This document shows positions 1 through 18,025 of a stretch of DNA of 20,850 nt, in pieces. Location: NCBI GenBank assembly GCA_001799195.1, contig MGSU01000018.1, forward strand, positions 1 to 20,850, given 5' to 3'. The position numbers and the translations under genes were made by a program. The notes under the pieces were generated by a model. That model saw only the letters and a program-made list of their open reading frames with translations. It was not told the DNA's origin and ran no database searches. Position 1 is the first letter of the stretch; each line of letters begins with the position of its first letter. Source of the stretch: Deltaproteobacteria bacterium RIFOXYA12_FULL_61_11 (GTDB lineage: Bacteria > Bdellovibrionota_F > JAHFAK01 > YA12-FULL-61-11).

Positions 1-592
1 CGAGGCAGCCCGCCTCCCGGGGAGGGCTTGCGAGCAGTTCGAGGACCAGGTCGTTCGGGACACTTCCAATACTGAGACACAAGCGCGGCCGCAAGGCCAG
101 GGCGACGAGCCGTGCGAGACAGACCTCGAAATCCCCGGTACCGGTGTCGATTTCGTGCGTAGCGACCGCGCGGAACAGGGGTAGGCGCCGGCCGAGGGCG
201 GAACGCGTTTCCGCGGCGACCCCTGCGCCGAGTTCGAGCGGAGGCCGTCCGGGGTCGGTGAGCATTCTCCGAATCAGGATTTCTTCATTTGCCACGAGAT
301 GAATCACGGTGCCGAGTGTATTCAAGCATTCGCGGTTGGCAGTAGCTTCGATCACTCCCCCACCACAGGCGATGACGCAGGGGAGGCGGCGCAGTTCGGT
401 CAGGAGGGAGCTCTCGAGCGTTCGGAAGGCAGGCCACCCTCGGTTTGCGACGAAGGAGGAGATGGGACCGTGGCGTTCTTCGAAACGCAGGTCGAGGTCG
501 AGGAAGGGTAGGTCGAGCCGTTCGGCCAGGGCTCTCCCGAGAGTACTTTTACCCGTGCCGCGGTGCCCGACCAGAATCAACGGTTCAAGCAT
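1..592 (-). CDS. aroK: Shikimate kinase, 3'-truncated by window edge; possible fusion to 3-dehydroquinase
   Basis: Phosphorylates shikimate to shikimate-3-phosphate with ATP, in the cytoplasm. Seen: from ATG at 592, 197 codons run open to the window edge. Walker A GHRGTGKST is at residues 9-17, with the shikimate-binding Asp of DLD (about residue 34), FR..E (residues 56-60), the GGG motif (77-79) and an RPPL lid segment (116-119). The start overlaps the aroA stop by 8 bp, so translation is probably coupled. A stand-alone kinase normally ends near residue 165-175. Here the frame continues as RPRLCLSIGSVPNDLVLELL (168-187), which resembles the first beta-strand and helix of type I 3-dehydroquinase (AroD). 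The kinase call is firm. The AroD fusion is an inference from about 30 residues. The rest of the gene lies outside the window. Confidence 0.9.
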   Translation of the reverse strand, partial: MLEPLILVGHRGTGKSTLGRALAERLDLPFLDLDLRFEERHGPISSFVANRGWPAFRTLESSLLTELRRLPCVIACGGGVIEATANRECLNTLGTVIHLVANEEILIRRMLTDPGRPPLELGAGVAAETRSALGRRLPLFRAVATHEIDTGTGDFEVCLARLVALALRPRLCLSIGSVPNDLVLELLASPPREAGCL

Positions 593-1877
593 GGCGCAGG
601 CCGACTCCGATGGAGGCCAAGGTCTCAAAATAACTTGGAAAACTTTTTGCCACGCAGTCTTCCCCCGACAAGCACAGGCCCGGCACGCGTAGGCCGAAGA
701 GGGCGAGACTCATCGCCATGCGGTGATCCCCGTGGGTTTCGAGCGTGGCCCCGTGCAACCGGTCGGGGTTCCCGTGCACGACCAAGGCGTCGTCCTCGAC
801 CTCGACCTCGACGCCGAGCCGGCGCAATTCTGTCGCGGTATCGCCGAGTCGGTCGGATTCTTTGTGCCGCAAATGCGCGACCCCACAGAAACGGCTGGGG
901 CCGCGGGCGAACGAAGCGACCACCGCCGCGGTCTGCAGCGAGTCGGGCATGTCGGTCATGGATACTCGCACGGGCTGGAGTTGAGAGGTGCCGGTTACGG
1001 TGACGCGTTGTCGGCAATTGTCTTGGGTCAGGGCGCAGCCCATCGAGGCCAGAACGCCCAGCAGCCCGCGCTCGCCGTGCGTGGAGGCGAGATCGAGTTC
1101 GGTCACGGTGACGGTGCCGCCCGAGATGGCCGCGGCGGCGAAGAAGTACCCGGCGCTGCTCCAGTCAGTCGGGATGCGATAGGTCCGCGGGGTATACACC
1201 TGAGGCGCGGCCACCAGGAAATGACTCTGCCCGGAGCGTTCGACGGTAACGCCGAATTCGGCCATCGTGGCCACGGTCAGGTCGACATAACTCGCCGAGC
1301 GCAAAGCTCCGTAGAGCTCGATGGCGCAGGAGGACTGTGCCAAGGGCGAGATCAGGAGCAGGGCGCTGAGGAACTGGCTGCTGACCTCGCCTTCGACCCC
1401 GGTCGATCCGCCGGGTAGCTTGCCTCCTCTCACGGTTACCGGCGGAGTGCCTGCGCTGTCCTCGACCTCGACCCCCAGACCGCGCAAAGCCGCGCAGAGC
1501 GATCCGACCGGGCGTTGGCGCAAGCGCTCGCAACCGGTGATGACGCTGGAGCCTTCGGCTAGGGAGCACAGGGCGGTGACGAAACGCATCAAGGTCCCTG
1601 AAGCCCCGACATCGATCGGGTGGGAAGGTGCGGTCAGCCGACCGCCGGTGCCGTGTACCACCAGTTCGGGGGCGAGGTTCCCGGGGGTGGTGCGCACCCC
1701 GAGAGCCTGGAGGGCGGCCAGGGTGTGGGTGATGTCGTCGTTGTCGGGGAGGCCGAGGAGTCTGCTGTCGCCTCCGGCCAGGGCGGCGATGGGGAGAACC
1801 CGGTTGGCGACGTATTTGCTGCCGGGCAGGGAAAGGGTGCAGTCCAGGGGGGAGGTTGGCGGCAGGATTTCGATCAT
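585..1877 (-). CDS. aroA: 3-phosphoshikimate 1-carboxyvinyltransferase (EPSP synthase)
   Basis: Transfers the enolpyruvyl group of PEP to shikimate-3-phosphate, the sixth shikimate-pathway step. The start is set at ATG 1877 because it gives a 4-bp ATGA overlap with the aroB stop and has GAGGAG (1886-1891) 8 nt upstream. A GTG at 1886 would overlap that ribosome site. The product is 430 aa, the usual length. Visible family motifs are LPGSKYVANR (17-26), GASGTLMR (91-98), SSQFLSALL (166-174), MPDSLQT in the region of the catalytic Asp, LRHKESDRL, GDHRMAMS and VAKSFPSYF. The glycine matching the glyphosate-contact Gly96 of E. coli is kept. Oddities: Tyr follows the first active-site Lys where Ser is usual (GSKS), and Ala stands where Asn is usual in the N-A/S-G-T loop. 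The gene lies between aroB and aroK in one operon. Confidence 0.96.
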   Translation of the reverse strand: MIEILPPTSPLDCTLSLPGSKYVANRVLPIAALAGGDSRLLGLPDNDDITHTLAALQALGVRTTPGNLAPELVVHGTGGRLTAPSHPIDVGASGTLMRFVTALCSLAEGSSVITGCERLRQRPVGSLCAALRGLGVEVEDSAGTPPVTVRGGKLPGGSTGVEGEVSSQFLSALLLISPLAQSSCAIELYGALRSASYVDLTVATMAEFGVTVERSGQSHFLVAAPQVYTPRTYRIPTDWSSAGYFFAAAAISGGTVTVTELDLASTHGERGLLGVLASMGCALTQDNCRQRVTVTGTSQLQPVRVSMTDMPDSLQTAAVVASFARGPSRFCGVAHLRHKESDRLGDTATELRRLGVEVEVEDDALVVHGNPDRLHGATLETHGDHRMAMSLALFGLRVPGLCLSGEDCVAKSFPSYFETLASIGVGLRHA

Positions 1878-2974
1878 GGAACACACTCCTCGAGAGCGTT
1901 GAGCAGGTCGGTTTCCCCGATCGGGTGCGCCCAGTGGCCCTCAACGTGGAGGACGCTGCCTATTCCGGTGAGGAGGACAAACCTCGGGGTGCGTCCGCGG
2001 GCTTTCTTGTCCGCACGCATTGGTCCGAGGAGGTCCTCGGCAGTCCCGGTGGGTAGAGCGGTGGGGAGGCCGAACCCCTGCAGCAGAGAGCGCAGCCGCC
2101 GGACCTCGGATTGCCCCAGATGGCCTGCGTTTCGTGCCAGGACCGCCTCGCAAACCAGACCCCGGGAGACTGCGGCACCATGGCCTTGCCGATAGGCTTC
2201 TCGCGCTTCGAGAGCATGGCCGACCGTGTGTCCGAGATTGAGCACTTCGCGGTAACCGCGTTCGAAGGGATCGTTTGCGACTACTTCGGCCTTGAGGCGG
2301 AGGCTTCGCTCGACCACCTCGGTGATGCTCTCGGCTTCCCTCCTCGAGAGAGAGGAAACATGGGCTTCGAGGAACTCGAACAAGGCCCGGTCGAGCGCTG
2401 CGGCGATCTTCACCACCTCGGCCATACCCTCGCGGAAGAGCTCGTCTTGCAGAGTATCGAGATGGTCGGTGCCGACGAGTACGGCCTCGGGGTGGTGGAA
2501 GGTCCCGAGGAGGTTCTTGCCCTCGGGCACGTCCACGCCGTTCTTGCCGCCGAGCGAAGCGTCGACCATGCCCAACAGGCTGGTTGGGACCAGGATGAGG
2601 GGAAGGCCTCGGTAATACGTCGAGGCGAGGAACCCCGCGAGATCGGTGACGACCCCTCCGCCGTGACCGACGACGAGGGTATCCCGGCCGCAGCCAGCGT
2701 GCAGCATCTCATCCTGGAGGCGGGAGAGAGTTGTTCTGGTTTTGGAAGCCTCTCCGGGCGGGAAGGTCAAGAGGAGCGGGACTCCGATTCCGGCCAAAGA
2801 TCCGAAGAGCCGTTCGTGGTGCAGGCCGGCAACCGTGGTATCGCTGATCACGACCAACCGATGGTCGGCATGACGGTCGAGGACCTCGACAAGCGAGGCA
2901 GCGCAATTGCGTTCAACGAAAACTCTGGTGGTTCCGGACCGGGGGGGGATGACGCAGTCGAAGGACCGGCTCAT
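1874..2974 (-). CDS. aroB: 3-dehydroquinate synthase
   Basis: Converts DAHP to 3-dehydroquinate using NAD+ and a divalent metal, the second shikimate-pathway step. The 366-aa product has typical family length. Seen: PPGEASKT (72-79), the NAD-binding glycine stretch GHGGGVVTDLAGF (103-115), LGGKNGVD (141-148), GMAEVVK with metal-ligand Glu186, LNLGHTVGHALE with metal-ligand His249, and QGHGAAV with metal-ligand His265. All three expected zinc/cobalt ligands are present, so activity is expected. The start ATG overlaps the aroF stop by 4 bp and the stop overlaps aroA by 4 bp. It is therefore an internal, translationally coupled operon gene. The call is close to certain. Confidence 0.97.
   Translation of the reverse strand: MSRSFDCVIPPRSGTTRVFVERNCAASLVEVLDRHADHRLVVISDTTVAGLHHERLFGSLAGIGVPLLLTFPPGEASKTRTTLSRLQDEMLHAGCGRDTLVVGHGGGVVTDLAGFLASTYYRGLPLILVPTSLLGMVDASLGGKNGVDVPEGKNLLGTFHHPEAVLVGTDHLDTLQDELFREGMAEVVKIAAALDRALFEFLEAHVSSLSRREAESITEVVERSLRLKAEVVANDPFERGYREVLNLGHTVGHALEAREAYRQGHGAAVSRGLVCEAVLARNAGHLGQSEVRRLRSLLQGFGLPTALPTGTAEDLLGPMRADKKARGRTPRFVLLTGIGSVLHVEGHWAHPIGETDLLNALEECVP
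1886..1891 (-). promoter_or_regulatory. Ribosome binding site deciding the aroA start
   Basis: GAGGAG on the minus strand lies inside the last codons of aroB, 8 nt before ATG 1877. It supports that ATG over the upstream in-frame GTG at 1886, which overlaps it. Confidence 0.6.
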
Positions 2975-3990
2975 ACCAACCGGCGGCCGAAATGCGGGGC
3001 AAGTGTGGCGAGGTCGGCGCGCACCTCGGCGAGCTGTTCAGGGCCCAAGGATTGGGCGCCGTCACTAAAAGCCTGTTCGGGCTTCGGGTGGGCCTCGACC
3101 AACAGTCCGTCCGCTCCGGCCGCCAGGGCTGCCCTGCAGAGCCCGGGGATGAGGAGGCGATTGCCCGCGGCGTGACTGGGATCCACGATGACCGGCAGGT
3201 GGGTCTCGTGCTTGAGGAAGATCACGGCTGAGATGTCGAGGGTATTGCGATAGGTGGTCTCATAGGTCCGGATGCCCCGTTCGCAGAAGATCACCTTCGA
3301 GTTGCCGCTCTTGAGGATGTATTCCGCGGCCATGATGAATTCCTTGATCGTCGCCGAGAGGCCCCTTTTCAGGATGACCGGAAGGTCGAGTTTGCCCATC
3401 TCCTTGAGCAGTTCCGAGTTGTGCATGTTGCGCGAGCCGACGCGGACGATGTCGACATACTCGGGAGCCCATTCCACGGCTCGGACATCGGTGATCTCCG
3501 TTTCCACCAGCAGACCGGTTTGCTTCTTGACCTCGCGCAGCAGCTTCAAGCCCTCTTTGCCGAGACCCTGGAATTCGTAAGGAGAGGTGCGGGGTTTGAA
3601 GGCCGAGGCGCGCATGACCTTGAAACCTTGCTGCACCAGCATGGAGGCGGCCTCGAAGACCTGGGTTCGGCCTTCGACGGAACAGGGACCCGCGATGAAC
3701 ACGAAGTCACGGTCGCCGAAGCAGACACCGTCGAGTTCGATCGCCGTGCGTTGCGCCGCGTGTTCTTTACTGGCGAGTTTGTAGGGTTTCTGAATGCGGA
3801 GGATCTGTTCGATCCCGGGAAAGGCGGCCCAGTCGCGCTCGGGTTCGAGGGTGCGGAGATCGCCGAGCACGTTGATGACCGTGCGCTCTACTCCCTGCGT
3901 GAGGTAGGGTTTGCATCCGGACTTAACGATGCGTTCGAGCAGGGCGTCGATCTGAGCCTTGGGGGCCTTGGGTTGCATGACGATGATCAC
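2971..3990 (-). CDS. aroF: 3-deoxy-7-phosphoheptulonate (DAHP) synthase, type I-beta with N-terminal regulatory domain
   Basis: Condenses PEP and erythrose-4-phosphate to DAHP, the entry step of aromatic biosynthesis. The 339 residues align by eye with the Thermotoga-type enzyme. An N-terminal ferredoxin-like/ACT-like domain (about 1-75, with VERTVINVLGD at 34-44) precedes the TIM-barrel. Catalytic motifs are AGPCSVEG (100-107, metal ligand Cys103), KPRTSPYEFQG (132-142), DPSHAAG (270-276, His273), VEAHP (298-302, Glu299) and SDG (Asp310). The start is GTG 3990, with AGGAGG 5 nt upstream. The ATG at codon 5 is too far from that site. In the Thermotoga-like group the N-terminal domain is the feedback-inhibition module for tyrosine or phenylalanine. 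Which effector acts here cannot be read. It is the first gene of the aro operon. Confidence 0.97.
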   Translation of the reverse strand: MIIVMQPKAPKAQIDALLERIVKSGCKPYLTQGVERTVINVLGDLRTLEPERDWAAFPGIEQILRIQKPYKLASKEHAAQRTAIELDGVCFGDRDFVFIAGPCSVEGRTQVFEAASMLVQQGFKVMRASAFKPRTSPYEFQGLGKEGLKLLREVKKQTGLLVETEITDVRAVEWAPEYVDIVRVGSRNMHNSELLKEMGKLDLPVILKRGLSATIKEFIMAAEYILKSGNSKVIFCERGIRTYETTYRNTLDISAVIFLKHETHLPVIVDPSHAAGNRLLIPGLCRAALAAGADGLLVEAHPKPEQAFSDGAQSLGPEQLAEVRADLATLAPHFGRRLV

Positions 3991-9711: not shown

Positions 9712-10560
9712 ATGCTCCATCGCCGAGGCACGATCCTCGCGGCAGCGGCAAAGCTCGAGGTAGTGCAGTTCTTGCCCGAGACCGCGGCCGCCTGTATCGA
9801 GGCGATCGACGAAGAGCGGAACCTGAGCCAAGTAGTGGCCTTGGTCGAAACCGATCCAGCTTTGACTGCTAATCTGCTAAAATGTGCAAATTCAATATAT
9901 TATACACCATTTCTTGGCAGGGCGGTGGGTACGGTGCGGGAAGCCTTGATCCGGTTGGGGTTGGTAGAATGTAAGAAGCTGGTCATCGCCCTTGGGGTTG
10001 TCCGCACGCTGCGAGGTCGGGGGTATGCGAACTGGCCACCCGGTTTCTGGGAGCATTCGATGGCCGTCGCAGGAATGACCATCCGGTTGATGCAGCGGCG
10101 CAGAGGAGCGGGTCTCGACCGACACGACCTCAGCCGGATCTATACCGCGTCTCTGCTGCATGACCTGGGAATCCTCGTTCTGGTCCAGGTTTCCCCGATC
10201 GGGTATCGGGAGGTGGTACAGCAACTGGGCGTCAGAGCAAGAGTTGCAGTCTGTGACGTCGAGGAAGAAGTGCTTGGGGTACGGCACACGGAGGTAGGGG
10301 CATTGGTGGCCATGCATTGGAAGCTGCCCCCCTTATTCGAACATCTGCTCGGGGATCATCATCGAGAGGCAGTCGATTTCAATGACCTGCCCTTGTCTGC
10401 TTTGTATTTGGCCGACCAATTGTCGTTGCGGATCGCCGAGGATCAGGCCGGTCCGATGCTGGCGCCGGTACCGGGACACAGAACCCTGCCTTCGAACGAA
10501 CGGGCCCTCTTGGCCGAGGAACTGGGGCGGTCCAATCAAATCGTGAGCCTCGTCGCCTGA
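9712..10560 (+). CDS. HDOD-domain signalling protein
   Basis: HDOD proteins are non-nucleotide-hydrolysing relatives of HD phosphohydrolases that act as signalling or scaffold proteins. The 282 aa are essentially one HDOD domain. Seen: the N-terminal motif DPALTANLLKCANSIYY (48-64), WEHS (113-116), LLHDLG (148-153) and RHTEVGALVAMHW (191-203). The HD pair is present here, unlike many HDOD members. ATG 9712 follows GGAGG (9697-9701) by 10 nt. There is no attached receiver or output domain, so it must work through partners. The codons for the NLLKCANSIYYTPF segment (about 9868-9912) are strikingly AT-rich against the rest of the gene. It stands alone between the protease gene and coaD. Confidence 0.88.
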   Translation: MLHRRGTILAAAAKLEVVQFLPETAAACIEAIDEERNLSQVVALVETDPALTANLLKCANSIYYTPFLGRAVGTVREALIRLGLVECKKLVIALGVVRTLRGRGYANWPPGFWEHSMAVAGMTIRLMQRRRGAGLDRHDLSRIYTASLLHDLGILVLVQVSPIGYREVVQQLGVRARVAVCDVEEEVLGVRHTEVGALVAMHWKLPPLFEHLLGDHHREAVDFNDLPLSALYLADQLSLRIAEDQAGPMLAPVPGHRTLPSNERALLAEELGRSNQIVSLVA

Positions 10561-13574: not shown

Positions 13575-13602
13575 TTTATAGCATGCTGGAGTTGGATTGC
13601 AA
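13575..13602 (-). promoter_or_regulatory. Probable promoter of the TPR lipoprotein gene
   Basis: On the minus strand, TTGCAA (-35, 13597-13602) and TATAAA (-10, 13575-13580) are spaced 16 nt in a locally AT-rich stretch. The leader would be about 30 nt. The same AT-rich block (13560-13635) also reaches the start of the divergent gene, so it probably drives both directions. Confidence 0.45.
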
Positions 13603-13611
13603 AACTTTGTT

Positions 13612-14208
13612 ATGCAATATCTTTTGATTGGTTTTTGTTTGCTCTCGGGGAGTCTGGCAGCGGCCGCGGGCGTTGCCGCCCGGCAGTTGGCGCTGAGTTC
13701 GGAGCAGCGCTTGGCGGAACTTCGCAACGAACTCGAGCAGCGGGATTTCTCTTACGTGGCCGCGGAGCACTCGATCGTTTCGGCGAAGGAAGACGGGGGC
13801 GACTTAGGAGAGTTCGAACTCTCCGGAGCCCAGGTCGAGGTCGCTCAGGCTTTGCGGTCCCTGCCCATAGGCGGCCTCAGTCAACCCCTGACGAGGGGGG
13901 AGATGGTCGTACTCTTCCAGCGGCTGGCCCCCCCTTCGAGCCTGCCGAAGGTTTCCTTCAGCTACCTGTTTGCGGATGGCGAACAACCCCTGCGCGAACT
14001 CCTCGCCTTGCTCACCGGCCGGAAGATCGGTTTCGATGCAGCCCTTGCTCGGGCCGATGGAGTGACCCTGCATCGGGGGAACGCCGTAGAGGTGAACTTC
14101 TCTGACCTCGACCCCTTCCTGCGCTTAGCCCTGCAGAGCCTTACCAAGAGCACCTGCTCCAAGATCGTGCGTAGTCGGGGACGGTACTTCCTGCTGCGGC
14201 TGGATTGA
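13612..14208 (+). CDS. Small exported protein with two divergent parvulin-like (PpiC-type) modules
   Basis: Possible periplasmic peptidyl-prolyl isomerase or chaperone. ATG 13612 gives a 198-aa product with a clear signal peptide (about 1-22). An in-frame TTG at 13597 is also possible. No Shine-Dalgarno sequence precedes either. Residues about 26-110 follow the parvulin pattern: a strand plus helix RQLALSSEQRLAELRNEL, then FSYVAAEHS, SAKEDGGDLGEFELS and VAQALRSLPIGGLSQPL, ending in a strand (MVVLFQRL). Residues about 115-198 repeat that outline weakly (FSYLF, LRELLALLTGRKIGFDAALA, PFLRLALQSL, RYFLLRL). The GGDLG core is only in the first unit. The SurA/PpiD-like N-terminal chaperone segment is absent. 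Parvulin assignment is inferred from the motif. Activity is uncertain. It lies 93 bp upstream of the multidomain kinase gene on the same strand. Confidence 0.6.
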   Translation: MQYLLIGFCLLSGSLAAAAGVAARQLALSSEQRLAELRNELEQRDFSYVAAEHSIVSAKEDGGDLGEFELSGAQVEVAQALRSLPIGGLSQPLTRGEMVVLFQRLAPPSSLPKVSFSYLFADGEQPLRELLALLTGRKIGFDAALARADGVTLHRGNAVEVNFSDLDPFLRLALQSLTKSTCSKIVRSRGRYFLLRLD

Positions 14209-14301: not shown

Positions 14302-17300
14302 ATGACGAGCGAACAAGCTGCCAAGGTGATCATTCTTGCCGATGAAGCGCTGAGGACCCTGCGGGTTCCTGCGACGGTCGTACCCCTGATTCCCGAACAT
14401 GTCGCCCGAGAAACCGGCATCATGCCCCTTGCCTTCGACCAAGCGAAGTCCATCCTGACCCTCCTTATGCTCGATCCCTCCGACCAGGTGACCATCGAAG
14501 AAGTTCGTATGGTCACGGAAGCCGCGGTGATCAAAGTTGTCAGCGGGCGCTCCGAGTTGATACGCGAGGTGATCGAACGCTACTACCGTCCCTCTGACGA
14601 GGTGAGCGTCGTCGAAACCGTGGAAGAACCAAATTTCGGCGATGAAGTCGGCGCCGAGCTGCTCTTCCTCTGCTCCGATGCCCAGCTCAACGAGCGGCTG
14701 AGAGCCTTTCTGGCCAGTAGCCCGGTGTCCATTTCTATCGTCAAGAATGTCACCACCATCTCAGCTATCCTCGAACGCACCCTCTTCGATCATGTGGTCA
14801 TTCATCGCCCGAGCTTCCAGGGGGTCGAAGACCTGGCTGCCAACATACGTAGCCGCGCACCCCAGGCCACCGTGAGGGTCATCGACAACCTCTTCGAACT
14901 CTGTTCCTTCGACGCCCCGGGCTCCAGGTCTGAGGTTGTCGGGGGACTTCCCACGGATTTTTTCTTCAATACCCTCGACTACCTGATCGGGATGCTCGAG
15001 ACCGAGTACGATTTCTTCCGAGGTCAAGCCCATGCGCTCTGTGGCTATGCCCGGACTCTGGGGGAGCGGTGCGGGATGCCTCCGGAAGAATTGCTCAAGG
15101 TCTCTCTGGCGGCCTATTTTAATGATTTCGGTGAGTTCGTACGGAGAAGGAACTTTGCCGTCAACGAAGACAGTCTGTTGCTCGAAGATCAAGTCCTCAA
15201 AGAGGATGATACTCTTATCAATGAATTACAGGAACAGCTTGCGATTCCCTATGACCTTCGCACCATCCTGCGGTATCGCAACGAACGCTTCGATGGAGCC
15301 GGACCTCTTGGGTTGACCGGCAACGATATTCCCCTGGCCTCCCGCATCCTCGGGTTGGTCCATGTATTCATCAACGAGGCCAAGTTCAAAGGGAAGATCC
15401 AGAACAAGAGAGAATCCCTGCGCATTATCCAAGAGGAGATGCAGGGTCGCTTCGATCCCCAGCTTGTGACCAAGCTCGAGGAAATGGTGACCGAAGAGTG
15501 TGGAGAGGAACAGCAGCAAGGTGAGAGTGGGACGCGCCGCATCCTCTTGCTCGATACCAAGAATCTCGCCACCGCTCAAATGAAACTGCGCCTCGTGCAC
15601 GAAGAGTTCGAGGTCGAGGTCGCAGCCTCCTCCCGCCGGGCGGTGGAGCAATGGAAGACCTTCCGTCCGGGCCTTGTGCTCCTCGGTATCGACAAACTCA
15701 ATTTCGTCGAACGTATTCGCGACGAGGGAGTGGAAGATCTCAAGGTCATCCTGTTACTGCCGCGCAATACCCCGGTCGACACCTCGAAGGTCGAGGGGGT
15801 GGTCGATCAGGTAACCAAACCGGTGAACCTCGACCTCCTGGTGACGAAAGTGAGGCGGGCCTTCGGACTCGGAGCCCAAGAACGAGTTGGTGGGTTTTTC
15901 CAGCAGAGTCAGGAATTCTACGAACTGGCACGCAAGTACAAGGAGCAGGGAAATATTCTCGATGCCGCCCGGATGTTTGAGAAAGCCAGGGATTTCAAAC
16001 AGGCCGGTGCCCTATATCTGGAAGCCCAGCAACCCGAAATGGCGGCAAGGGCCTATGAGAAGGGCAAGTACTTCAAGCGTGCCGCTGAATGCTACAAGCA
16101 AGCGAAGAACTACATCAAGCAGAACGAGATCTTGCTCAAACTGGGGGATTATTACTCGGCCGGGGCAAATCTGATGAAGAAGCACCGGTGGGACCAAGCC
16201 ATCGCGATACTCCAGAAGGTCGACCGGGGATCCGAGAATTATCTCAAGAGCAAGATCCTGCTCGGTAAGGCCTTCATGAGCAAACGGAACTTTCCGTCGG
16301 CCATCGCCAATTTCCGCAGCGCGATCGACGACAAGAAGATCGGCAAAGAGAACCTCGGTAGCTACTATGTCTTGGCCGTAGCCCTGGAATATCACGGCGA
16401 ATACGAAGAGGCGTTGAAAATCTACGAAGCCATCTACGGGGAGCAAGTCAATTACCAGGATGTGGAGAAGCGTCTCAAGAACGTCAAGACGAAGCTCAAG
16501 GACCAGAGGCAGAAAGAGCAACAAGCTGGGGGCGAGCAAGGCCGAGCCTTCGGGCCTGCCAAACGCTACAAGAAGCTCGAGGAGATAGGCCGGGGTGGCA
16601 TGGGCGTTGTGTACAAGGCCGAAGACACGTTGCTCGGACGAGTCATTGCCCTCAAGGTCCTCGCGACGGCCCTGAAAGAAGATCGCAAGGTCGTCGACAA
16701 TTTCCTGCGAGAGGCGCGATCTGCCGCGGCTCTCAACCATGCCAATATCGTTACCGTCTACGATGTCGGTATTGAGGACGGTAACTATTTCATCGCCATG
16801 GAAAATATCGAGGGTGAGACGTTGCGCGAGATCATTCGCAAGAAGCGCAAGGGACCTCTCGATCTGAAGAATACCCTGGCGATCAGCAAGCAGATCTGCA
16901 AAGGTCTCGGGTATGCCCACAACAACAAGATCATTCACCGGGACCTGACGACCAGCAATGTCATGATAACCATGACCGGGATGGTCAAGATCATGGATTT
17001 TGGCCTGGCTCGAGTGGTCGAACGCCTGATGAGCGAGCAATCGATCATCGGGGGTACGCCGTCGTTCATGTCGCCGGAGCAGGTCGAGGGTGATCCGATC
17101 GATCATCGTTCCGATATCTACACCTTCGGGGTGTCCATGTTCGAGATGGCCACGGCCGATGTTCCCTTCAAGAAGGGTGACCTCGGCTATCATCATCTCC
17201 ATACGGCGCCCCCTTCTCCCAAGAGCATCAACCCCGAGACCCCGGATCTGCTCTGCGAGATCATTCTCAAATGTCTCCAGAAGAAACCCGATGACCGTTA

Positions 17301-17361
17301 CCAGTCGGTCGATGAAATCCTCGAGGACCTCAACCGGCTCCAGCGTGAGGTCCAGGGGTAG
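14302..17361 (+). CDS. Multidomain signalling protein: MshEN-like, degenerate HD-GYP, degenerate receiver, TPR repeats, Ser/Thr kinase
   Basis: A 1019-aa soluble Hanks-type kinase with long sensory part. Domains by eye: residues 20-95 match the second half of the T2SS-E/MshEN N-terminal domain (VVPLIPEHVARETGIMPL). Residues 225-400 resemble HD-GYP, but the HD site reads YFNDFGE and the GYP region NERFDGAGPLGL. Residues 412-523 look like a receiver with LLLGID where the phospho-Asp should be and KPV kept (506-508). TPR-like helices rich in Ala/Tyr/Lys fill 535-715. The kinase domain is 755-1015: GRGGMG loop (763-768), ALK Lys785, Glu804, HRDLTTSN (879-886), DFG (899-901), SPEQ (924-927) and the usual C-lobe Arg. 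Catalytic Asp881 is present, but the HRDLK Lys is Thr883. No transmembrane segment is seen. ATG 14302 is plausible, with a weak ribosome site. The next gene begins 4 bp after its stop. Confidence 0.9.
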   Translation: MTSEQAAKVIILADEALRTLRVPATVVPLIPEHVARETGIMPLAFDQAKSILTLLMLDPSDQVTIEEVRMVTEAAVIKVVSGRSELIREVIERYYRPSDEVSVVETVEEPNFGDEVGAELLFLCSDAQLNERLRAFLASSPVSISIVKNVTTISAILERTLFDHVVIHRPSFQGVEDLAANIRSRAPQATVRVIDNLFELCSFDAPGSRSEVVGGLPTDFFFNTLDYLIGMLETEYDFFRGQAHALCGYARTLGERCGMPPEELLKVSLAAYFNDFGEFVRRRNFAVNEDSLLLEDQVLKEDDTLINELQEQLAIPYDLRTILRYRNERFDGAGPLGLTGNDIPLASRILGLVHVFINEAKFKGKIQNKRESLRIIQEEMQGRFDPQLVTKLEEMVTEECGEEQQQGESGTRRILLLDTKNLATAQMKLRLVHEEFEVEVAASSRRAVEQWKTFRPGLVLLGIDKLNFVERIRDEGVEDLKVILLLPRNTPVDTSKVEGVVDQVTKPVNLDLLVTKVRRAFGLGAQERVGGFFQQSQEFYELARKYKEQGNILDAARMFEKARDFKQAGALYLEAQQPEMAARAYEKGKYFKRAAECYKQAKNYIKQNEILLKLGDYYSAGANLMKKHRWDQAIAILQKVDRGSENYLKSKILLGKAFMSKRNFPSAIANFRSAIDDKKIGKENLGSYYVLAVALEYHGEYEEALKIYEAIYGEQVNYQDVEKRLKNVKTKLKDQRQKEQQAGGEQGRAFGPAKRYKKLEEIGRGGMGVVYKAEDTLLGRVIALKVLATALKEDRKVVDNFLREARSAAALNHANIVTVYDVGIEDGNYFIAMENIEGETLREIIRKKRKGPLDLKNTLAISKQICKGLGYAHNNKIIHRDLTTSNVMITMTGMVKIMDFGLARVVERLMSEQSIIGGTPSFMSPEQVEGDPIDHRSDIYTFGVSMFEMATADVPFKKGDLGYHHLHTAPPSPKSINPETPDLLCEIILKCLQKKPDDRYQSVDEILEDLNRLQREVQG

Positions 17362-17365
17362 GCGT

Positions 17366-18025
17366 ATGGCAATCCTCGCCTCGGGTCGCACCGGGTATTG
17401 GCTGCCAGTTCTCCTCTCTACCTTCTTCGTAGCCTCCCTGCAGGCCCAGGAGCGGCGGGCCGTCTTCGCGCAGCTCACAACCGAGATCGATGAACCTGCG
17501 CTGAGCGAGCTGGCGGCTACGCTCGATCGAGGCCTTCGGGCTGGGTTGGCGGAGAACCCGAGCTTCGATCTTTTGGAAGCGATCGAGGTCGAGAGCATGG
17601 CAGCCGATTACCTTGCCGGGATCGACGGGTCGTGCCGGGATATCTCCTGCCTTGTGCAGATGGGTCGGTTCATGGGGGCCGATATAATCATGAGGCCAAG
17701 ATTAGAAGGAAGCGGGCCGACCTTGTTCTTGCGTCTCCACCTGCTCGATTGTCGCACCGGAGCGCTCGAGTTCGCGCTGCTCGAGCAGTTCCGTCCCGAG
17801 GAGCTCGAGACGGTGGTGGAGAACGTGCGCCAACGGCTGGTGCAGGAACAATTCTGGTTGGATCTGCGCTTTCCCGGGGACTACGAGGGTCAAGTCTACA
17901 TGTATGCTTCCAATACCCAACCGCCTGGGTTCACCACTTCCCTGCCCTTCTGGACCGTGACCCTCGCTGGAGCCTTCTTGGCCTCGGCGCTGTCGTCGTA
18001 CTACCTCTGGCAGACTTCGCGCTGA
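17366..18025 (+). CDS. Exported, C-terminally anchored protein with TolB-N/CsgG-like region
   Basis: Function unknown. The 219-aa product starts at ATG 17366, 4 bp after the kinase stop, with an AGGGG ribosome site at about 9 nt. It has a signal peptide (about 8-30). A periplasmic domain (about 32-170) resembles the small alpha/beta fold seen at the N-terminus of TolB/CsgG-type proteins. It reads helix LAATLDRGLRAGLAEN, then FDLLEAIEVE, CRDISCLVQMGRFMGADIIM, LFLRLHLLDCRTGALEF. A final transmembrane helix (about 190-212) leaves a few cytoplasmic residues. The cysteine pair CRDISC and the GAD-I-M segment are typical of this group. The tight spacing suggests co-translation with the kinase and a role at the membrane side of that pathway. 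This is inference. Confidence 0.72.
   Translation: MAILASGRTGYWLPVLLSTFFVASLQAQERRAVFAQLTTEIDEPALSELAATLDRGLRAGLAENPSFDLLEAIEVESMAADYLAGIDGSCRDISCLVQMGRFMGADIIMRPRLEGSGPTLFLRLHLLDCRTGALEFALLEQFRPEELETVVENVRQRLVQEQFWLDLRFPGDYEGQVYMYASNTQPPGFTTSLPFWTVTLAGAFLASALSSYYLWQTSR

Follow-up and report, generated by a model that had tools for sequence, protein, structure and literature searches.

The 20,850-nt stretch of DNA analysed here, referred to as the window, comes from contig MGSU01000018.1 of Deltaproteobacteria bacterium RIFOXYA12_FULL_61_11, a member of a sparsely sampled phylum. It contains one long gene whose product joins the C-terminal part of an MshEN domain, a receiver-like domain (REC1), an HD-GYP domain, a second receiver (REC2), TPR-like repeats and a Hanks-type protein kinase (Table 1). 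The original prediction had placed MshEN, HD-GYP, receiver, TPR and kinase modules on one chain in this order, and Pfam searches confirm both the order and the coordinates of the reading frame; the HD-GYP region (as HD_5) and the receiver region are both found by profile. Misassembly, frameshift or chance joining can be set aside as explanations, as a single BLAST alignment runs unbroken through the HD-GYP, REC and TPR regions in each of two further genomes, at 32% and 27% identity, and GC content changes only smoothly along the gene.

Table 1. Features of the fusion kinase and its downstream gene, in positions of the window.
Feature	Position	Strand	Residues	Remarks
Fusion protein, MshEN_C - REC1 - HD-GYP - REC2 - TPR - Hanks kinase	14302..17361	+	1019 aa	no internal stop
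MshEN C-terminal subdomain	14350..14598	+	17-99	Pfam PF05157, E=1.2e-9
Cryptic receiver-like alpha/beta domain, REC1 (putative)	14650..14910	+	~117-203	AlphaFold2 and position
Degenerate HD-GYP domain	14953..15522	+	218-407	PF13487 (HD_5) at 229-388, E=3e-14
HD motif, read as ND	15121..15126	+	N274-D275	motif table
Aspartate-less receiver, REC2	15535..15864	+	412-521	PF00072 at 414-518, E=2.6e-6
TPR-like helical solenoid	15871..16524	+	~524-741	weak TPR Pfam matches within 624-713
Hanks-type protein kinase domain	16567..17322	+	756-1007	PF00069, E=1.9e-49
Catalytic loop HRDLTTSN	16936..16959	+	879-886	Thr883 at usual Lys position
Downstream gene	17366..18025	+	219 aa	N-terminal hydrophobic segment; 4-base gap after kinase gene

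Upstream of the kinase gene lies a gene for a PPIase-like protein (13597-14208), and downstream is the gene for a 219-residue protein, which is probably co-transcribed with it; this protein has no Pfam match at E<=0.05. The HD-GYP-REC-TPR-kinase order recurs in two other genomes, G001 and G179, and neither has the 219-aa gene beside its orthologue. In G001 the kinase gene overlaps the upstream lipA by 4 bases, and in G179 it shares a few bases with an acyl-CoA dehydrogenase gene downstream. A conserved operon was considered and rejected, as the neighbours differ at all three loci; since none of them is conserved, genome context names no pathway. Elsewhere on the plus strand of the window are a stand-alone HDOD-domain protein (9712-10560, E 1.1e-36), which precedes the kinase by about 3.7 kb and belongs to a family often tied to signalling, and a 707-residue protein matching Transglutaminase elicitor PF16683 (5795-7918, E 3.6e-42), a family that takes its name from oomycete elicitors. 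The minus strand carries a shikimate-pathway cluster (2-3990), in which genes for shikimate kinase, EPSP synthase, 3-dehydroquinate synthase and DAHP synthase adjoin.

AlphaFold2 models support each of the predicted folds. A first run on residues 1-530 (19 alignment rows, mean pLDDT 80.6) gave an MshEN_C fold at 8-95, a strand/helix domain at 119-202, an all-helical HD-GYP domain at 218-407 and a CheY-like domain at 413-520; because its pTM was low (0.50), the relative arrangement of these domains is not fixed by the model. Residues 521-1019 (mean pLDDT 88.0) were modelled as about 13 consecutive helices, mostly with pLDDT above 90, which form the TPR region, followed by a kinase fold. The highest 19-residue hydropathy mean in the whole protein is 1.25, with no stretch like the membrane anchors of TPR-kinases, and the best reading is that the fusion kinase would be soluble.

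The MshEN part had been described as a half-domain, and indeed only half is present, namely the half without the c-di-GMP site. PF05157 matches residues 17-99 with 38.5 bits against a cut-off of 23.1 (41.7 bits in a second search), and the entire N-terminal half of 53 residues, which binds c-di-GMP, is missing. Two 24-residue c-di-GMP-binding motifs have been defined for MshEN (PMC5013675). A relaxed form of this motif (RLGxx...Q), of which two copies are expected, occurs nowhere in the reading frame or in the 31 residues of open frame upstream of its ATG; the same pattern is found once each in four related proteins (L042, L069, L077 and L078). A longer N-terminus that restores the lost half is thereby rejected, and a link of the protein to c-di-GMP through MshEN is not supported. 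The remaining subdomain resembles the N-terminal domains of PilF and PilB. MshEN also occurs without an ATPase in genome G000, where two adjacent short proteins (frames of 248 and 257 aa, C191:27091-28103) carry one such domain each.

Between MshEN and HD-GYP, residues ~117-203 probably form a CheY-like domain, a reading held with moderate confidence and based on position, secondary structure and inspection of the sequence. Pfam receiver models do not match this segment, and fold-search matches for the fusion are mainly to REC2 and HD-GYP. In the AlphaFold2 model, strands and helices alternate in residues 119-202 with moderate confidence (block pLDDT 61-87), and the segment occupies the position of the first receiver of a related protein with two Response_reg stretches in Pfam (L042) and of a weak Response_reg match at 192-238 in another (L096). 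One alignment placed REC1 of the relatives against MshEN, and those parts were cut before modelling. With this domain the number of degenerate modules would rise to four; the original prediction had counted three, all of which do lack key residues.

The HD-GYP domain is closest in structure to DvhD among solved HD-GYP proteins (Z 17.5, rmsd 4.3 over 188 residues; Foldseek E=2.3e-7) and lacks its metal site as had been read from the sequence: the HD motif is ND and the Tyr of GYP is gone, the motif being GAG-P. In addition, the HH pair is replaced by R326-N327 and a later Asp by H354; H244, D275 and the D331-G332 pair are retained. Hydrolysis of c-di-GMP by this domain is predicted to be absent. 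REC2 scores 28.0 bits with Response_reg, slightly below the cut-off of 30.2, and its fold superimposes on the PhoP receiver with a Z of 17.8 (rmsd 2.0 over 114 residues). Its phospho-Asp is missing, as had been noted, with G462 in its place; one acidic residue (D418) and the conserved Lys K506 are kept. The term "aspartate-less receiver" (PMC12632262) fits this domain. The earlier suggestion that the degenerate modules serve as binding or sensing scaffolds remains a sensible reading, as they appear to be folded and have been retained without catalytic residues.

At the other end of the protein lies a divergent Hanks-type kinase domain, which matches PknB (5u94) with E=1.8e-51. It had been called otherwise complete, and all the other motifs checked are intact (G-loop at 763, K785 in beta3, E804 in alphaC, HRD at 879-881, N886, D899-FG and SPE at 924-926), but the Lys of the catalytic loop is replaced by Thr883. 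This Lys of HRDxK is usual in Ser/Thr kinases without being invariant, and catalytic loops that lack it can be active, as in tyrosine kinases. Thr is found at this position in the window protein, in both other fusions and in a second kinase of G179 (L147), and Ser in a kinase of G034. A tree of 32 kinase domains unites these five in one clade with support 100/99; the other near kinases compared have Lys there, except for L002 from the same genome as the window, which has Ser (HRDISPQN). L147 (1721-4153 on contig C66 of G179) is a TPR-kinase with the loop HRDLTTNN. Its N-terminus carries a hydrophobic segment, and neither HD-GYP nor a receiver is seen in its sequence; the loss of the Lys thus probably came before the fusion. 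Since every other checked catalytic motif is intact and the change is common to the whole clade, the fusion kinase is probably active.

Only three carriers of the fusion were found among roughly 390 distinct genomes sampled. G001 (JAHFAK010000017.1, Deltaproteobacteria bacterium nzgw173) belongs to the same class as the source of the window, and was the only relative found in a contig scan with two narrow peptide patterns; G179 belongs to another phylum. Their proteins are shorter (846 and 818 aa), and neither has MshEN or REC1, so that the core design can do without these two modules. The HD motif varies among the three (ND in the window, QQ in G001, HD in G179), and none has an N-terminal hydrophobic anchor. 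The kinase part is the best conserved region, with 66% identity between the window protein and G001 and 61% to G179. The three fusions group together in the trees of the TPR-kinase part (support 84/71; 84% of bootstrap trees), of the HD-GYP-REC part (83/85; 87% of bootstrap trees) and of the kinase (96/93). End branches are longer for HD-GYP-REC (1.5-1.8) than for TPR-kinase (0.4-0.7), which indicates that the former evolves faster and could reflect weak constraint. A single fusion event is favoured, not proved, since the grouping has moderate support in the TPR-kinase and HD-GYP-REC trees, and a number of their rows are long. As the fusion is present in two phyla, its transfer between them is likely. 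A search of plasmid records returned ordinary HD-GYP matches only.

Both halves of the protein have homologues of their own. Those of the N-terminal half (MshEN_C, REC1, HD-GYP and REC2) are the input halves of MshEN-REC-HD-GYP-REC-DUF4388 proteins in several genomes, and those of the C-terminal half are TPR-kinases that are, by hydropathy, mostly membrane-anchored; each of these families is widespread. PF14332 (DUF4388) has no match in the fusion, and its matches in the same genome lie on other contigs. A module swap, in which the DUF4388 end was replaced by a TPR-kinase end, would explain the protein. The phospho-Asp of the second receiver is missing in 8 of the 10 DUF4388-type members compared (Glu in six, Ser and Ala in the others), so that the receiver was probably degenerate before the fusion. 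In L042, L069, L074, L075, L076 and L077 the position is mostly taken by Glu, which may serve as a built-in phospho-mimic. The REC-HD-GYP-REC-DUF4388 arrangement is widespread, and no description of it was found in the literature searched.

We propose, with a probability of about 0.5, that the protein is a soluble Hanks kinase and that its control lies with a docking and dimerisation platform devoid of enzymatic activity, together with the TPR solenoid. The input side of the kinase would have been taken over from another signalling family, and its folded N-terminal modules would form the platform. A partner protein, or a ligand, may bind the platform or the solenoid and so change the spacing of two kinase domains; the changed spacing in the dimer would control trans-autophosphorylation and switch the kinase on or off. 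PknB-type kinases are activated by dimerisation and trans-autophosphorylation, and HD-GYP domains act as dimers (PMC13090378, for DvhD), which makes the model plausible. Against it, no partner gene is conserved beside the fusion in the three genomes, both orthologues lack MshEN and REC1, and the faster change of HD-GYP-REC could reflect weak constraint.

It is less probable, and on the whole doubtful, that the kinase is instead a second-messenger receptor, freed from autoinhibition when c-di-GMP or another nucleotide binds its pseudo-HD-GYP or a pseudo-receiver. There are precedents, as DvhD has SQ for HD and yet binds c-di-GMP without metal, doing so without hydrolysing it (PMC13090378), and in ShkA it is a pseudo-receiver that binds c-di-GMP (PMC7010744). 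The own genome of the window has 16 GGDEF and 9 MshEN matches, so that c-di-GMP is probably present. The MshEN motifs are absent from the fusion, however, and so are the ligand residues of DvhD: the six residues mutated at its two c-di-GMP sites (K520, P567, M646, R650, Y652 and R653; PMC13090378) align with E235, R282, E359, K363, K365 and I366, and none of the six is kept, R650 to K363 being the sole conservative change. The original prediction of a link from c-di-GMP to Ser/Thr phosphorylation is thus not supported for MshEN and is possible in principle for HD-GYP, by analogy with DvhD; sensing of c-di-GMP by the fusion is possible, with the link weakened. That the platform carries the kinase to a type IV pilus or type II secretion ATPase, with MshEN_C packing on a PilB/GspE-like protein, seems improbable. 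The likeness to the N-terminal domains of PilF and PilB fits such docking, as do the MshEN-ATPases with Walker motifs (L101 and L102) encoded in the genome, but neither of the other fusions has MshEN and no pilus genes are recognised within the window. Beyond the MshEN homology, no evidence was found for the predicted link to type II or type IV pilus signals.

Other readings place the change in the kinase or deny the N-terminal half a role. Loss of the Lys may have altered phospho-acceptor specificity, or left a nearly dead kinase that is mainly a binding protein, which we consider unlikely: the Lys is replaced in all five members of the well-supported clade while near kinases other than L002 keep it, but the remaining catalytic motifs are all present, the high conservation of the kinase part argues for retained function, and L002 itself does without the Lys. 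Least of all do we expect the N-terminal half to be a decaying remnant carried along by the kinase without present function. All four of its modules are degenerate and it changes fastest, but its frame of 521 residues is intact, the predicted folds are confident and HD-GYP-REC persists in each of the three fusions, which span two phyla. A bolder reading, which we regard as speculative and probably too strong, is that the lysine-less kinases form a separate bacterial subfamily with changed chemistry or acceptor preference, one branch of which is steered in cis by a wholly non-enzymatic c-di-GMP/phosphorelay input block and has spread between phyla.

Dead HD-GYP domains, like pseudo-receivers, are common, yet their mode of action is mostly obscure. 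Here several such modules sit in cis on one kinase, which could make their effect readable directly as kinase activity. An input block appears to have passed from c-di-GMP and phosphorelay signalling to Ser/Thr phosphorylation, with the phospho-Asp already gone in most of its kinase-less relatives. The parts are all familiar; the module order, its probable single origin and the clade of kinases without the Lys appear undescribed in the literature searched. Literature searches that paired HD-GYP with DUF4388, with kinases, or with TPR and a pseudo-receiver returned no description of this architecture, and within their reach the view that no named system has this order is upheld. Fusions of MshEN with REC, HD-GYP and Ser/Thr kinase domains had, however, been reported in general terms in 2016 (PMC5013675).

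The closest known systems resemble parts of the fusion. The MshEN-REC-HD-GYP-REC-DUF4388 proteins (such as L042, L069 and L096) have its first four modules in the same order, with REC1 in some members only; they end in DUF4388 rather than TPR-kinase, and in several of them HD is retained along with one or more MshEN_N motifs. The TPR-Ser/Thr kinases (such as L045, L046 and L048) place a TPR solenoid before a Hanks kinase as the fusion does, with 37-43% identity over the C-terminal half; unlike it, most begin with a hydrophobic anchor, have a longer TPR array and read HRDIK. The anchor is common without being universal, as 19-residue hydropathy exceeds 2 in most members and four non-fusion members lack it. 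DvhD of Desulfovibrio vulgaris likewise has an HD-GYP fold without a metal site and is no enzyme, but it is a PAS/dCache membrane receptor without a kinase and keeps GYP and the c-di-GMP ligands (PMC13090378). ShkA of Caulobacter is a kinase regulated through a pseudo-receiver, as the fusion may be (PMC7010744); it is a histidine kinase with REC1/REC2, and no homology to the kinase part of the fusion is claimed. The PknB-type Hanks kinases share its kinase domain, and the fusion differs from them in having no PASTA domains, Thr for the catalytic-loop Lys and other input domains.
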